Shown: positions 27,074 to 35,594 of the stretch, piece by piece
Layout: every line of letters starts with the position of its first letter
Position numbering within the stretch: position 1 is the first letter of the stretch
Assembly (NCBI GenBank): GCA_011049455.1
Contig: DSBL01000057.1
Coordinates: 1-64,000 of the forward strand
Source of the DNA: Desulfonatronum sp.
Lineage (GTDB): Bacteria; Desulfobacterota; Desulfovibrionia; Desulfovibrionales; Desulfonatronaceae
DNA length: 64,000 nucleotides
Direction of reading: 5' to 3'
Program-made: the position numbers and the translations under genes
The notes under the pieces: generated by a model
Database searches by the model: none
What the model was told of the DNA's origin: nothing
Seen by the model: only the letters and a program-made list of their open reading frames with translations

Positions 27074-29659
27074 ATGAACACGTCCACCGATATCTCCCCG
27101 CCGCAGGTCTTTCCCCACGTTCTCGTCGTCCATGCCTCGGCCGGAGCGGGCAAAACGTACAGCCTGAGTTTGCGATTTCTCCAGCTTTTGGCCTTGGCCA
27201 AAAAGCCCTCTCTGGAAGCCCTGCGCCACGTCATGGCCCTGACTTTCACCGTGGCTGCGGCCCAGGAAATGAAGTCCCGCATCGTCTCCTTTCTCAAGGA
27301 TATCGCCCTGGAATCTGATCAGGGCAAGGTTCTGCACCAACTCAGCGGACTCGCGCCGGATATGGCCCGAAATTGGCTGGACTGCATCCTCGCTCATTTC
27401 CAAAGTTTCCAGGTCAAGACCATTGACAGCCTGCATTTTCAAATAGTTCAAGCCCTGGGCCGCAGAATGAACCTCTGGCCTGACCTGGAACCCAGTTTTG
27501 ATCAAGCCAAATGGGCAACATTGATGCTTGATTCCCTGCTGGCCAGGACCAGCTGGAGCGATGCGCCGCAAACATCAAAACCGGATTTTTCGTCTTCGCT
27601 GCGCTCTCTCTGGGAGGAAATCTTCTCGGTCTATCTGCACCTGGAAATGCGCACCGGTGTTCGTTTTTTAAAATGGCTGGAAAATCAGGCCGCGCAGGTT
27701 TTCAGTGGGCTGGACCAACATTTGGGAGAGCTGCGGACAACCTCCCTGGCCACCCTGAATGCCCGGCAACTTGCATTCGAGAACGCCTGCCGGGAATTCT
27801 GCCTTGTTCTGGAACAACATGGTTTGGAAAACCATGTTGCCCGTTTCAAGCCCGCAACCCTCCTGACAGATCCTTTGCGCAGTATTGATTCCGCCTTTTA
27901 TGCCAAGAACACGCCGCAAGATTTGTTCAAGAAGACCATGCGCCCCAGTCGCGAGACGGCTCTGGCCTGGGAGAAATATGAAAGCCTGTGCCGGGCAAGA
28001 AATGCCTTTGTGTTGGAAAAAGCCAGACTGCGCATGGACCCTTTGGCCCGGTTGCAGCATCTGCTGATCCAGGAGACGCAACGTCTGGGACGATCCCAGG
28101 GGCTGCTTCTGGGTGGCTGGTGGACCAGACTGATCCGCCAACACATGGCCGACAAGGACCTGCTTCTGGAGGCGGAAATGGTGCTCAACGCAAAATGGCG
28201 GCATATGCTCTTGGACGAATTCCAGGATACCAGCCGGGAACAATGGGAAGTGCTGCGCGAACTGGCCCTCGAAGCTCTGGCCCAAGGCGGCAGCCTGTTC
28301 TGCGTCGGCGACGTAAAACAGGCCATCTACGGATGGCGCGGCGGGGACTGGCGGCTATTTTTTGATCCCCTGACGCCTCAAACCTTCCCCAACGTCGAAG
28401 ATCATGCCCGCTTGCATAAGACACTGCCACGCAACCGTCGTTCCTGCCCGGAAATCGTGGCCTTCAACAACGCCTGCTTCGCTTCCCTGGAAAATTGCGA
28501 AACAGCGCGCCGATTGGCCGCAACCATGATCAGCGGCAAGGACAAGGAGCACCCCCGGACGCTGCTTTCCCAATCCATCTCCAGGCTGTATGCCCAAGGA
28601 AAACAAAAGCCATGGAAACACTGCCCCGGCAATGTCCGCGTGACGACCCTCACGGCGCAATCCCTGGAGGAATACAAGGTAGCGGCCTTGGACGCGCTGC
28701 TTGAGGAAATCATGAGTTTGCGGGCCGCGGGCGAACCCCTGGACGATATCGCGGTCCTGCTCCGGACCAATGCCGAAGCCGGGGAATGCTCCAAGGCTCT
28801 TTTGGGACAGGGCATTCCCACAATCACCGAACAGAGCCTGCTCATCTTTGCTCATCCCCAAGTACGCGGCCTGCTGGCCCTGCTGGCCTGGCTGGACAAC
28901 CCCGCGGACGACGCTGCCCTGTTCGCCCTGTGCAAAAGCCCTCTTTTGGCTCACGTCAACATCGATGCCACGATACCGGCATGCTTCCAGGGCAATGCTG
29001 ACAACGGGAAACACGCTCCCGGCCGCCTTGTTCATGCACTGCGCCGGACCGATCCGGACACATGGTCCCGATATCTGCAGCCTTTTCTGGAATATGCCGG
29101 TTTTTCCAGCGCCTACGAAATTTTGTTGGCCGCGGTGACGCACTTCGGCCTGCGCAATATGCCCCTGGGTCAGTGGGCCTGGGTGGAAAAACTGCTGGAA
29201 GCGGCCTGGAGCGCGGAAGTGGCCGGCGCCGCCAGCATCGCCTCCTTTCTGGAATATTGGCGGGAAACCGGGCATAAATGCGTCGTGGGTCTGCCCGATC
29301 ATGGACTGGAGGCGGTACGCGTGCTGACCATGCACAAGGCCAAGGGGTTGGAATTTTCACGCGTCATTCTCCCCCTTCTGGACTATGGTCCTAAAAACCG
29401 CAGCGATTATCATCTGTTGCACACAGCAAACGGCGAATCCTTTCTGGCCGCCTCGGCCAGGCCCAGGTCCGCGGAAGTGGCCGAGGCGGCTGACCTGGAG
29501 TTGGCCAAGACAATGGCCGAGGAACTGAATCTGCTCTATGTTGCCTTGACCAGGGCCAAGCACAATCTGCACCTTTTTTTGGCGGACATCCCCGACGTCA
29601 GGGGATCGCGGGCATCGGACTGGCTGCGGGTACTCATGACCGGACTGAGCGCGAATTGA
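27074..29659 (+). CDS. AddA/RecB-like UvrD-family helicase lacking a C-terminal nuclease domain
   Basis: Walker A VVHASAGAGKTYSL; LLDEFQDTSREQWEVL; GDVKQAIYGWRGG; VLTMHKAKGLEFSRVILP; LLYVALTRAKHNLHLF. Stops by TGA right after motif VI. Confidence 0.9.
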   Translation: MNTSTDISPPQVFPHVLVVHASAGAGKTYSLSLRFLQLLALAKKPSLEALRHVMALTFTVAAAQEMKSRIVSFLKDIALESDQGKVLHQLSGLAPDMARNWLDCILAHFQSFQVKTIDSLHFQIVQALGRRMNLWPDLEPSFDQAKWATLMLDSLLARTSWSDAPQTSKPDFSSSLRSLWEEIFSVYLHLEMRTGVRFLKWLENQAAQVFSGLDQHLGELRTTSLATLNARQLAFENACREFCLVLEQHGLENHVARFKPATLLTDPLRSIDSAFYAKNTPQDLFKKTMRPSRETALAWEKYESLCRARNAFVLEKARLRMDPLARLQHLLIQETQRLGRSQGLLLGGWWTRLIRQHMADKDLLLEAEMVLNAKWRHMLLDEFQDTSREQWEVLRELALEALAQGGSLFCVGDVKQAIYGWRGGDWRLFFDPLTPQTFPNVEDHARLHKTLPRNRRSCPEIVAFNNACFASLENCETARRLAATMISGKDKEHPRTLLSQSISRLYAQGKQKPWKHCPGNVRVTTLTAQSLEEYKVAALDALLEEIMSLRAAGEPLDDIAVLLRTNAEAGECSKALLGQGIPTITEQSLLIFAHPQVRGLLALLAWLDNPADDAALFALCKSPLLAHVNIDATIPACFQGNADNGKHAPGRLVHALRRTDPDTWSRYLQPFLEYAGFSSAYEILLAAVTHFGLRNMPLGQWAWVEKLLEAAWSAEVAGAASIASFLEYWRETGHKCVVGLPDHGLEAVRVLTMHKAKGLEFSRVILPLLDYGPKNRSDYHLLHTANGESFLAASARPRSAEVAEAADLELAKTMAEELNLLYVALTRAKHNLHLFLADIPDVRGSRASDWLRVLMTGLSAN

Positions 29660-29719
29660 GGTTGCCATCCGCATCCCATCATTTTCATTCCACATTCAAT
29701 CCTTGAATATGCACCACTG

Positions 29720-32700
29720 ATGTCCATTTTCCCCCGTCTTGCCTTGGCCTCACCGGACTGTTCAACCTGGAACGACGACGCTTTGCGCCGCATCCAGGGG
29801 GAACTGGCTCACCAGGCATTGGCTCTTTTGCAGCCGGGAGAAAACGCATCCAAAGATGTGCTGCGACGGCTGCGTCAGGCCAGGGCTTTACAAGGATTAC
29901 ATCACGCCCGGATCGAGCTGGAATCTCTAGCCAAAAGCATCGTCCGAGCCCTGCATCATCCCAAGATTGCCCCGTTTTTCGCTGAAAACGTTTTGGCCCT
30001 GGCCGAACAGGAAGTCGTGGTCCCGGGCAGGACCGCCGCATCCTCGCACCATGTGCTGCGCATGGACCGGGTGGTCCTGTTTCCGGACAAAACACTCTGG
30101 GTCTTGGATTTCAAGCTCGGCTCGGGAGACCCATCCCTGGATTGCGAACAGGTGTGTGGCTACCAGCAGCTGTTGTCCGGAATTTTTCAACGCCCGTGCC
30201 ATGGGGCCTTGATCCATCTGGACACGGGACAGATGCAGGAATTGCCGCCCATGAACCTGGACCCCGCAACGGTTAAGCCGCAATCCGGGGATCCTTCTGG
30301 GGCCAACGACGCCTTCTTTCCAGAAGGCAATACCCATCCTTGCCCCATCCAGGTTTTTCCTCTGAAGGCCAATCTGTTGGCCCTGTTGAGCAAGGACCTT
30401 CTGCGGTTTTACGCCCCGGGCCAACCGCTGAACCTGACCGCCGTCCAGGTTCTTTTTCCCCATCGCCGCCCCAAAATCCATCTGCTGCACACCCTGGTCC
30501 AAGCCATCAACGCCCCCTTTCTGCCGCCTCGTTGCATGAGCTTGGAGGACTGGATCCTGCACCAAGCCTGTCTGAGCCTGGACGCACCGCCGGCTGTGGC
30601 CTCGTCCCTGGACCAAGCCTGGCTGCTGCACGGCCTGCAGGAAACCGGTTACGAGAATGAAAAGGAGGCTCCGGCGTGGCATCAATTTTTGCCCTGGGGC
30701 CTGCGCCTGGCCCAGGTCATGGAAGAGTTGGATTCGCATCAAGTCCGCGGCCGCAACCTGGACTCCCCTCCGGACGATCTGCCGCTTACGGCCAGGGACA
30801 TGCTGGCCCGGCTGGGCTCCCTGCAGGCCGGCTTCCATGCCGCCTTGGAGGCCAACGACCTGTGGACCAAGGCAAGCCTGGCCCGTCATATCGCGCCTGA
30901 ACAGCTGCGATGCCACGACCCGATGTATGTGTGCGGGTTGTTCGCCCTGACGCGAACCGAGGCGTCTCTGGTGGAAACCCTGTGGCGATCCGGCGCTCGG
31001 CTGTGGTGGCAGGCGGATCGCCCTTTGCCGGACCAGCTGGACCAATGGGTCAAAACCTGGCGAGCCCGCCTGGAGTGGATGGACGACCACAGCCAGAAGG
31101 CCCGTTTTGACCAGGACAGGACACCGCAAAAAACCTTTCTGGTGCAGGCCCATGACCTGCACTCCCAGCTACGGCATCTGGCCGCGAACATGTCTTCCTG
31201 GGATCCAGAGGAACATATCGCCGTGATCGTGCCTGATGCAACAATACTGCGACCTGTTTTGGCGCACCTGCCCTCAGCAGGCCAGGTGAACATCACCCTG
31301 GGGATGCCTTTGGCGCGCACCGGGCTGGGGGCGCTGTTGCATATCCTGGTGCGCACCACCCGGGACCGTCAGCTTTCCGGTATTGGTCCCCACCCTGAAA
31401 ATCTCCTGTTTTTTTTGCAATCCCCTTGGGTGCGCCGGCTGTTGCCCGAGGGCATGATGGGCTGGCTGCGCCAAACCCTGGCCGAAAAAGGAAATGTCGC
31501 CCTTGTTGCCGAAGATTTGACCTGGATTTCCCTCCAGGCCCAAGAGCGCTTCACTGATATGGGCCATTTTTTGCCCGAGCTGGCCGGCCTTTTTTTCGAA
31601 GCCTTGGATCTGGAGTCGCTGTCCTCCTTGTGCAGCTATATAAAACGCCTGTTCAGGATCCTGCGCATCGACGACACGGCGCACGTGCCCCTGGAAATGC
31701 ATGTGGCCCATGCCCTGTACACCCGGATACTCCCCGAACTGGAACATGCTTTGTGCAGCAGCCAGAACATGCCCGCCGGCTCCCTGTGGAGCGTCTTTTG
31801 GACCGCCTTGCAAGCCGAGCGGATCCCTTTCAGCGGTGAACCGCTAACCCCGTGGCAGGTCATGGGATTATTGGAAAGCAGGCTGCTGTGCTTCGACAAG
31901 GTGGTGGTCCTGGAATGCGTTGAAGGAACGCTGCCCACCGATCAAGTCCCCAACCCCCTGCTTCCGGAAGTCCTGCGGCCGGCCCTGGGACTGCCTCCTG
32001 GACACGCGGATGAACAGATCATTCGTCATCATTTTCAACGATTAATCGCTTCACCCCGGGAAGTGCACCTTTACAGCCGTCAGGGACTAGCCGCCGACCC
32101 CTTGGAGGGCCGAAAAATCCCCAGCCGGTATTGGGAACAGGCCCTGTGGAAGGAAGAAAAACATCAAGGCGTCCGGCTTGAGGACTCCATTATCAAAGTT
32201 TCCCTGGAACTGGATATGAGCGGCAAGCCGGTGAATGTTCCCACAAAGGAACAGTGGATGCCGCTGCTACGCGAGCGTTTGGCCGCCGGACTGAGCTTGT
32301 CCGCCCTGAATACCTACCTCTCCTGTCCGATTCGTTTTCTGTATGAACAGGTGGCCCGCTTTCCATCAAGGACATATGCGGCGCACGACCCTGGCCCGCA
32401 GGTCATGGGCGAATTGGCGCACAAGGTCCTGGAGAATCTCTTTCGGCCGCATCGTAATGCCTGCATAGTGCCCAGGGATCTTTTGCCGCAATTGACGCGA
32501 ATATGGGACGATTGTGTTGCCGAAGGCTTGCGTGACGCGCCTTTGTCTCCCGCCTCCCGTTTTTTCCATGTCCGCCTGTTGCATGAACTGCTGAGCAATT
32601 ATCTGCGCAAGGCCACTGATCCGGTCCGTCCGATCATGCTCGAAGAACCGGTGCAGCGTGCACTGCCGGGTACGGCCTGTTCCATTCTTTTGCGCGGTCG

Positions 32701-33172
32701 ACTGGATCGGGTCGACCTTGACATGGAAACCAGACTGCCCTTGATCCTGGATTACAAAACCGGCGCGGCGCCGTTGAAACGGTCCCTGCCCGTGCATCAT
32801 CTCTGGGAATTGAGTGAAACCTTGGAAAACGCTCCCTTGGATCAAGAATCGCTGATACTGGTCAAGGAAAAACTCCAGGATCTTCAACTCCCGGCCTATC
32901 TCTTTCTGCTTGGTCGCCCGGCCTTATCCGCTTTTTGGCTGCTCGGCGAATGGGAGCCCAAAAGGGCCTTTGTTGGCTTTCACATGAACGACAAAAAGGA
33001 CATTCAAGGCTCTTTGGAGGACTTTTTAACCTGGCAGCGACAAGGACTGCCCGTGCTTATGGAATGGCTCGGCCGGCATATCCTGGAGTCCGCCCGATTT
33101 ACTCCGGCTTGTCGTCCACTAAGTTGTGGCTTTTGTCCCTGGAGTCCGGTCTGTCCATGGACGAGTGGGTAA
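29720..33172 (+). CDS. AddA-type RecB nuclease domain fused to AddB-like protein with C-terminal Fe-S PD-(D/E)XK nuclease
   Basis: N-term RecB-nuclease motif RMDRVVLFPDKTLWVLDFKLG...CGYQQLL. AddB-like region from about IQVFPLKANLLALL...VQVLFPHRRPKIHLL. C-term LDRVDLDMETRLPLILDYKTG and cysteine cluster (SCPIRFLYEQ ... CRPLSCGFCPWSPVC). Confidence 0.85.
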   Translation: MSIFPRLALASPDCSTWNDDALRRIQGELAHQALALLQPGENASKDVLRRLRQARALQGLHHARIELESLAKSIVRALHHPKIAPFFAENVLALAEQEVVVPGRTAASSHHVLRMDRVVLFPDKTLWVLDFKLGSGDPSLDCEQVCGYQQLLSGIFQRPCHGALIHLDTGQMQELPPMNLDPATVKPQSGDPSGANDAFFPEGNTHPCPIQVFPLKANLLALLSKDLLRFYAPGQPLNLTAVQVLFPHRRPKIHLLHTLVQAINAPFLPPRCMSLEDWILHQACLSLDAPPAVASSLDQAWLLHGLQETGYENEKEAPAWHQFLPWGLRLAQVMEELDSHQVRGRNLDSPPDDLPLTARDMLARLGSLQAGFHAALEANDLWTKASLARHIAPEQLRCHDPMYVCGLFALTRTEASLVETLWRSGARLWWQADRPLPDQLDQWVKTWRARLEWMDDHSQKARFDQDRTPQKTFLVQAHDLHSQLRHLAANMSSWDPEEHIAVIVPDATILRPVLAHLPSAGQVNITLGMPLARTGLGALLHILVRTTRDRQLSGIGPHPENLLFFLQSPWVRRLLPEGMMGWLRQTLAEKGNVALVAEDLTWISLQAQERFTDMGHFLPELAGLFFEALDLESLSSLCSYIKRLFRILRIDDTAHVPLEMHVAHALYTRILPELEHALCSSQNMPAGSLWSVFWTALQAERIPFSGEPLTPWQVMGLLESRLLCFDKVVVLECVEGTLPTDQVPNPLLPEVLRPALGLPPGHADEQIIRHHFQRLIASPREVHLYSRQGLAADPLEGRKIPSRYWEQALWKEEKHQGVRLEDSIIKVSLELDMSGKPVNVPTKEQWMPLLRERLAAGLSLSALNTYLSCPIRFLYEQVARFPSRTYAAHDPGPQVMGELAHKVLENLFRPHRNACIVPRDLLPQLTRIWDDCVAEGLRDAPLSPASRFFHVRLLHELLSNYLRKATDPVRPIMLEEPVQRALPGTACSILLRGRLDRVDLDMETRLPLILDYKTGAAPLKRSLPVHHLWELSETLENAPLDQESLILVKEKLQDLQLPAYLFLLGRPALSAFWLLGEWEPKRAFVGFHMNDKKDIQGSLEDFLTWQRQGLPVLMEWLGRHILESARFTPACRPLSCGFCPWSPVCPWTSG

Positions 33173-34205: not shown

Positions 34206-35594
34206 TCAACTGTGAGCTTCCATGGTCTGCGCCAAGCGGTCAAGCTGTCGGCCGACGGGACTTTTTCTGGCAATTTCCCGTTCCACCTGAGTGATGCCTT
34301 TAAGCACCGTGGAATGTTTGCGGTTGAAGGCTTCGCCAATCTTATTCAAGGAAAGGTCGGTGTGTTTTCGGGCCAGATAAAAAATGGCGTTACGGGCCAG
34401 CACATTCTCCTTTTTACGGCTTTTTGCACGCAATTTTTCATCGGAAAGATTGAAGGATCGGCAAATAAAACGTGTAATTTTTGCCAAATCCGGCTTATGC
34501 AGGGATGAGGAATAATTCTGCAGGATTTCCATGGCCATGGTGTGGGAGATCTGTTGATTCAGGAGTCTGGCTTTCATCACAAGGTTCTGAAGGCAGCTTT
34601 CCAGGAGCCGCACATCGGTTTGAATGGAATTGGCGAACAGTTCGGTCACATCCCGGGGTATTTGGATCTGGTAGCTTTTGGCCTTGGCTTCCAATATGCG
34701 CACCCTGGTTTCGAAATCCGGCCTGTTGATGACGGCCATGAATCCGTCACAAAACTGGGAGGCAAGCTGGCTGTCCAGCTTGGGCAATTCCTTGGGCAAG
34801 AACGAACTGCTGAAAATGACTTTCTTTCCGGCGGCTCGCAAGACTTTGACAGTGGCCAACAGCTCTTCCTGGGTCTTTTCCTTGCCCTGCAAAAAATGAA
34901 TGTCTTCCAGAAGCAGGACATCCACTGCGTCTCGAAATCCAGCCTTGAAGGTTTCCATTTCGCGGCGCTTCAACGCGATGATCATGCGGCAGGCAAACTC
35001 CTCCGCACTGAGATAGGCCACCCGGAGAGATCCGTTTCCGTTGCCGCTGGTGGAAAATTCCTGACCAATGGCCTGGAGCAGATGGGTTTTGCCCAATCCC
35101 GGAGCTGAACAGATGTAGCATTGATCCGTGACCAGCTGATGACGGCAAATGCTTCTGGCCGCGCTGAAGGCCAATTCATTGCTGGGGCCGACCACAAAAT
35201 CTTGAAAGGAAAAACGCCAGTTGGCCTTGCTGGAAACGGTCTTGCTCGCCAGGTGCATCGGGACGGGCAACGCCAGAGGCAGGTATTGCCTTTCAAGGCG
35301 ACGTGGTGCCGTGCATTTCTCCTGGGCTTGAGGACAGACCTCGCTGATGATGCGCAAGTCATAATCGCGTCCCGCCGCCTGCCGCAGGACTTGGGAAATG
35401 GTTTGCGCATAGTGGTTTTTGATCCAGGAAGCCACAAACCCGTTGGCTGCGGTCAGGGTCATGCAGGTGGCATCCATCTCGACCTTCAGCGGGGAAATCC
35501 AGACCCGGACGTGAGTTGGATTTATTGATTTTTCGAGAATTTCAAGAGTTTTTTTCCAAACAGCATTCATGGCAGCCGTGTTTACGTTCTTCAC
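34206..35594 (-). CDS. dnaA: Chromosomal replication initiator protein DnaA
   Basis: WISPLKVEMDATCMTLTAANGFVASWIKNHY; FVVGPSNELAFSAA; GLGKTHLLQAIG; LLLEDIHFLQGKEKTQEELL; DnaA signature region FNRKHSTVLKGITQVE. Confidence 0.93.
   Translation of the reverse strand: MKNVNTAAMNAVWKKTLEILEKSINPTHVRVWISPLKVEMDATCMTLTAANGFVASWIKNHYAQTISQVLRQAAGRDYDLRIISEVCPQAQEKCTAPRRLERQYLPLALPVPMHLASKTVSSKANWRFSFQDFVVGPSNELAFSAARSICRHQLVTDQCYICSAPGLGKTHLLQAIGQEFSTSGNGNGSLRVAYLSAEEFACRMIIALKRREMETFKAGFRDAVDVLLLEDIHFLQGKEKTQEELLATVKVLRAAGKKVIFSSSFLPKELPKLDSQLASQFCDGFMAVINRPDFETRVRILEAKAKSYQIQIPRDVTELFANSIQTDVRLLESCLQNLVMKARLLNQQISHTMAMEILQNYSSSLHKPDLAKITRFICRSFNLSDEKLRAKSRKKENVLARNAIFYLARKHTDLSLNKIGEAFNRKHSTVLKGITQVEREIARKSPVGRQLDRLAQTMEAHS

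Follow-up and report, generated by a model that had tools for sequence, protein, structure and literature searches.

A Desulfonatronum AddAB locus with a nuclease-less helicase and an AddA-type nuclease domain fused to AddB

AddAB is a two-subunit machine with one nuclease per subunit. In the enzyme of Bacillus subtilis the AddA nuclease cuts the 3′-terminated strand and the AddB nuclease the 5′-terminated strand, and crystal structures place the AddA nuclease on the surface of AddB (PMC4824097). Here we describe an addAB locus of Desulfonatronum sp. in which these parts are joined differently: the first gene encodes an AddA-like helicase with no nuclease domain, and the second encodes an AddA-type nuclease fused to the front of AddB. 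The locus lies on the plus strand of a stretch of 64,000 nucleotides (assembly GCA_011049455.1, contig DSBL01000057.1, positions 1 to 64,000), termed the window in what follows, to which all coordinates refer.

With a probability of roughly 0.8, we read the locus as encoding a functional AddAB-type enzyme of double-strand-break resection with redistributed domains, arisen by fission and then fusion. Gene 1 would supply the 3′-5′ helicase motor alone; in gene 2 an AddA-type nuclease is followed, across a flexible linker, by an AddB that keeps an iron-sulfur (Fe-S) nuclease of its own. The two proteins, translated separately, would pair as a heterodimer that contains the usual AddAB parts, namely one motor, an AddB scaffold and two nucleases. 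An earlier reading of the window, made from its letters and open reading frames (ORFs) only and here called the sequence-only reading, had offered either a split/fused architecture or a readthrough product joining both ORFs. The former stood and the latter did not, and the three-gene intermediate that we find in related families was not visible to it.

Domain layout and state of the nucleases

The helicase gene, ORF1 (27074..29659, 861 amino acids, stop TGA at 29657-29659), is a superfamily 1 (SF1) helicase of the AddA/RecB type with only the UvrD-helicase and UvrD_C domains of Pfam. Its motor motifs are intact (HASAGAGKT, LLDEFQDTS and LLYVALTRAK, as read in the translation, with NCBIfam AddA/RecB models also matching). 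It ends ∼26 residues past motif VI without a nuclease domain, the same point at which the helicases of its relatives end. Matches of this helicase to the PADLOC model GajB were rejected as a sign of a defence system; they reflect the shared UvrD fold.

Against the AddA model TIGR02784, ORF1 covers profile positions 15-890 of 1138 and no further. The second gene, ORF2 (29720..33172, 1150 amino acids), matches positions 980-1104 of the same model with its residues 21-149 (E 1.3e-4), and thus the AddA portion absent from ORF1 sits at the front of ORF2. This N-terminal PD-(D/E)XK nuclease domain (29720..30280, residues 1-187) carries H31, E96, D116, D130, K132 and Y148/Q149. It is followed by a linker (30281..30331, residues 188-204) whose length varies among relatives, and then by the AddB homologous region (30332..33172, residues ∼205-1150), which is recognized by TIGR02786 (addB_alphas); matches to separate AddB proteins start at residues 204-244. 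No Walker A motif is visible in the helicase-like core of the AddB region. The C-terminal AddB nuclease with its Fe-S cysteines (32291..33157, residues 858-1146) is matched by PF12705 (PDDEXK_1, E 2.8e-28). The sequence-only reading had placed a RecB-type nuclease at the start of ORF2, an AddB-like start near 30343, and AddB's own nuclease with an Fe-S cysteine pattern at the C-terminus. Profile searches bear out the first and the third, the latter together with four invariant cysteines, and the matches to AddB homologues set in at about residue 204-210, near 30332-30349.

Searches of the PDB with ORF2 gave no match by single sequence and only weak, partly spurious matches by profile, and the comparison was therefore made at the level of predicted fold. 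The AlphaFold2 model of residues 1-207 has a mean predicted local distance difference test score (pLDDT) of 87.7, and its best PDB match is the AddA chain of B. subtilis (4ceh_A, E 6.5e-7), followed by ACE1 and AdnA. The full-length model (pLDDT 84.8, predicted template modelling score 0.73) falls below pLDDT 50 at the linker, residues 188-204, and its top matches are the B. subtilis AddB chains 4ceh_B and 3u4q_B. A mixed alignment (A3) of free nucleases with full ORF2 was dropped for structure prediction, since the free nucleases had aligned to the C-terminal nuclease.

Both nucleases look active, judging from conservation. In an alignment of the N-terminal nuclease (35 rows, of fused, free and canonical domains), H31, E96, D116, K132 and Y148 never vary; across 32 AddB rows the same holds for the AddB nuclease residues H901, D996, D1011, K1013, Q1056 and Y1060 and for cysteines C869, C1136, C1139 and C1145. 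The predicted parts of the complex thus include two intact sets of catalytic residues, as AddAB requires. Between close species pairs the ratio of nonsynonymous to synonymous substitution rates (dN/dS) is 0.19-0.25 for the N-terminal nuclease and 0.22-0.31 for the AddB part, pointing to purifying selection on the N-terminal nuclease. A complete nuclease for this helicase elsewhere would, by its own statement, have refuted the sequence-only reading; no second AddA-type nuclease was found in the genome of the window or in G001-G006, six of its relatives. No RecB over the curated cut-off was found in the genome either (TIGR00609 best 178.6 bits, cut-off 696).

The N-terminal domain might instead be a decaying, non-catalytic remnant, with the AddB nuclease alone at work. 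Such a domain can be dispensable, as indicated by four Desulfovibrionaceae of a related clade, whose AddA ends at the linker with no counterpart of the lost nuclease found elsewhere (see below). Against this stand catalytic residues that are invariant at ∼50% overall identity, the low dN/dS and the confident predicted fold of the domain, and we regard decay as improbable.

Conservation and the gene junction within the genus

Among 40 related genomes searched, each of the seven other genus members (Desulfonatronum/Desulfonatronaceae) has an ORF2 homologue that spans the fusion; identity is 51-58% in six of the seven. The counterpart is a single open frame of 1163-1408 amino acids in six, and in G007 it is split over two contigs. 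The helicase is nuclease-less in all seven (∼860-890 amino acids). The nuclease-less helicase and the fusion gene are therefore present in 8/8 genus genomes searched, two of which have the parts on two separate contigs, and the split/fused architecture proposed from the window is a conserved one. A scan of genome contigs yielded three loci only, all from the Desulfonatronum group.

One base change at 29657 would turn the window locus into a single open frame of 2032 codons, as if a sequencing or assembly error had interrupted a plain AddA-AddB protein fusion. The sequence-only reading had kept this artefact as an alternative, and the relatives rule it out, leaving it a practically negligible chance: seven independent genus assemblies are split in the same way, at junctions that differ in sequence. 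That all seven carry it, with invariant catalytic residues and dN/dS of ∼0.2, argues that neither the split nor the fusion is an artefact.

The junction itself was described correctly from the window. In the ORF list the helicase frame ends at TGA 29657-29659 and the next ORF starts in the same frame at 29720; the spacer (29660..29719, 60 nt) is free of other in-frame stops and has, by reading, no Shine-Dalgarno-like element ahead of the ATG, as had been claimed. No consensus match to a promoter or terminator was found in it. A mini-ORF, ATG CAC CAC TGA, lies at 29709-29720, its stop overlapping the ORF2 start as TGATG; this may have a role in reinitiation or be due to chance. That the two genes form one frame broken by a single TGA is true of the window and incidental, since the relatives do not share such a frame. 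Given the local base composition, an in-frame, stop-free spacer of 20 codons has a chance of ∼0.18, which makes the shared frame unremarkable.

Junctions of the relatives differ from that of the window and from each other. In five relatives (G001, G003, G005, G006 and G007) the helicase ends in TAA and ORF2 is out of frame with it; in four of these (G001, G003, G006 and G007) that stop overlaps the start of ORF2 as TAATG, and the G005 junction reads TAACAATG. In G002 a TAA stop is followed by a spacer of 44-45 nt with extra in-frame stops ahead of the ATG. In G004 the helicase contig runs into the first part of a transposase gene and stops there, and the contig with ORF2 opens inside the end of a similar one; because both contigs break inside similar transposase genes, an insertion sequence (IS) element probably lies between the two genes, both ORFs being intact (L025 1-560, L062 6900-7331). 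The window ATG at 29720 aligns with the ORF2 starts of the relatives (MSIFPRLALASPDCSTW / MRDPLFPHLVLAPPDASTW), such that the start of ORF2 is homologous throughout. From this variety of junctions, two separately translated proteins are the rule in the genus. In the close relatives, stop/start coupling is the probable means of translating ORF2.

These junctions also bear on the readthrough product of the sequence-only reading, in which TGA 29657 would be read through, or recoded as selenocysteine (Sec) or tryptophan, to give a single AddA-AddB polyprotein. The window ORFs do share a frame with one stop between them, an arrangement that the spacer estimate above leaves well within chance. The proposal is contradicted by the different frames and TAA stops of five relatives, by the TAA and further in-frame stops of G002 and by the probable IS transposase of G004; moreover, the 20 codons of the spacer have no conserved counterpart in the relatives. 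A conserved in-frame stop with a continuous frame, as programmed readthrough would show, is present in 0/7 relatives. Conserved readthrough or recoding of the TGA, Sec included, is thereby ruled out, and a joined product in the window is very improbable.

Split forms across the phylum and their history

Loci scanned with helicase, nuclease and AddB profiles fall into four arrangements. In the canonical arrangement, found in the Desulfovibrionaceae-like family f5 and in f18, f59 and f89, a helicase-nuclease AddA accompanies AddB. The three-gene arrangement has a helicase (∼800-860 amino acids), a free nuclease (∼180-270, typically ∼190) and AddB; it occurs in f16, f34, f35, f43, f70 and f98, and in f2 and f3, which are of the same order as Desulfonatronum. 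Family f86 likewise has a free nuclease; counted across the phylum, at least nine other families have the three-gene version. The fused arrangement is confined to the genus Desulfonatronum. Among 395 sampled genomes of the phylum, the nuclease is in a short open frame in 29 genomes of seven families by our count, with families f2 and f3 in addition, and the window's own is the only case, among the nuclease-bearing genomes sampled, of a long AddB frame with the nuclease in front.

In the fourth arrangement the nuclease is lost: in four Desulfovibrionaceae (G139, G111, G204 and G221; L064-L067) AddA stops at the interdomain linker (WLPRLKIF...), AddB is intact and no AddA-type nuclease was found anywhere in the genomes. 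As judged from these sequences, one of the two AddAB nucleases has here been cleanly lost in nature.

Gene order varies in a few further genomes. The addB gene is apart from the helicase and free nuclease, elsewhere or on another contig, in G397 (L055/L056), G486 (L069/L070) and G017 (L039/L061); the order is addB, helicase, free nuclease in G053 (L060); and G421 (L082) and G350 (L083) have a free nuclease and addB, the region examined around them showing no helicase gene.

We reconstructed a tree from concatenated helicase and AddB (28 genomes, site-heterogeneous model, quick search, unrooted). One branch separates the fused and three-gene forms from the canonical forms (96 in the Shimodaira-Hasegawa-like approximate likelihood ratio test, SH-aLRT), and the helicase tree agrees with this grouping of the split forms (98). 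The most likely course is a single fission of AddA at the linker, which would have given the three-gene form that related families retain, and then a single fusion, within the genus, of the freed nuclease gene to the neighbouring addB. Three-gene loci are often linked by 4-nt overlaps, ATGA or GTGA; in f16 and f98 these connect all three genes, with one exception at one junction, so that a single frameshift could be enough to fuse the nuclease to AddB.

Several points weigh against this account. The AddB-only tree (midpoint root) puts the fused group next to f5, on a weak, open branching. In the unrooted tree the fused and three-gene groups are sisters, and the order of fission then fusion rests on parsimony. 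In the window, ORF2 starts 60 nt past the helicase stop and has no Shine-Dalgarno element to account for its translation.

The sister position of the two groups means that the tree alone leaves the events unordered, and the AddA nuclease might have moved straight onto AddB in a common ancestor, the three-gene families later splitting it off. Such a direct transfer requires simultaneous fission and fusion, however, and the fused form is known from one genus and the three-gene form from at least nine other families; we therefore consider the reverse order unlikely.

Outside the locus, a DnaA-like ORF of 462 amino acids (34206-35594, minus strand), assigned from its own translation, lies just downstream on the opposite strand.

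The proposed enzyme and known systems

Because the AddA nuclease of B. subtilis already resides on the AddB surface, moving its covalent link to AddB can keep the quaternary arrangement, and the link seen here is geometrically plausible. The AddA-type nuclease would stay at the 3′-strand exit on the surface of AddB, tethered to AddB and not to the motor; the result would be a working AddAB enzyme, rewired in its tethering. A tentative further idea, which we hold to be doubtful, is that relocation of the 3′-strand nuclease from the motor subunit to AddB, the scaffold that scans for Chi, alters regulation, for example through constant positioning of the nuclease and a weaker or different attenuation by Chi. 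If it were true, the canonical, three-gene, fused and nuclease-lost series across the phylum would amount to a naturally occurring range of resection enzymes wired in different ways.

No description of an AddA split or of a nuclease::AddB fusion was found in the open-access literature searched, which does not include a survey of AddAB/RecBCD shuffling (Cromie 2009) that may mention such forms; within that scope the fusion is an apparently undescribed AddAB variant. It would represent a machine severed at a domain linker and rejoined on the opposite subunit, selection having preserved both nucleases, and it supports a view of the AddA nuclease as a module docked at the AddB exit channel, for which a covalent tie to the motor is unnecessary. 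In the three-gene form the nuclease subunit can be added, omitted or mutated separately, and the long-standing question of how Chi silences one nuclease therefore becomes easier to test. Annotation pipelines expecting an AddA of ∼1200 amino acids may miss or misname such systems.

The AddAB enzymes of B. subtilis (PDB 3U44, 4CEH) and alphaproteobacteria share with the Desulfonatronum system an SF1A motor, an AddB core with an Fe-S nuclease and two PD-(D/E)XK domains; their first nuclease is the C-terminus of AddA, whereas in Desulfonatronum the helicase lacks a nuclease and the AddB polypeptide begins with it. Closer at hand, canonical AddAB of the Desulfovibrionaceae (f5, same order) likewise has adjoining genes, helicase then addB, with homologous helicase, nuclease and AddB, but its AddA, of ∼1050-1200 amino acids, has its own nuclease. 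The three-gene loci of other Thermodesulfobacteriota families have AddA split at the same linker, the same gene order and the same nuclease family, and differ in that their nuclease is a free protein of ∼190 amino acids, unfused to AddB.

More distant systems differ in the distribution of motors and nucleases. AdnAB of mycobacteria has a motor and a nuclease in each subunit. It shares the PD-(D/E)XK nuclease fold and a helicase-nuclease heterodimer, which in our case is predicted; here the motor is in one subunit and two nucleases are in the other, whose AddB region shows no visible Walker A. RecBCD has a RecB-like motor and nuclease, and its RecC is structurally related to AddB, as seen in the fold search; the Desulfonatronum system has no RecB over the curated cut-off and has two nucleases instead of one.

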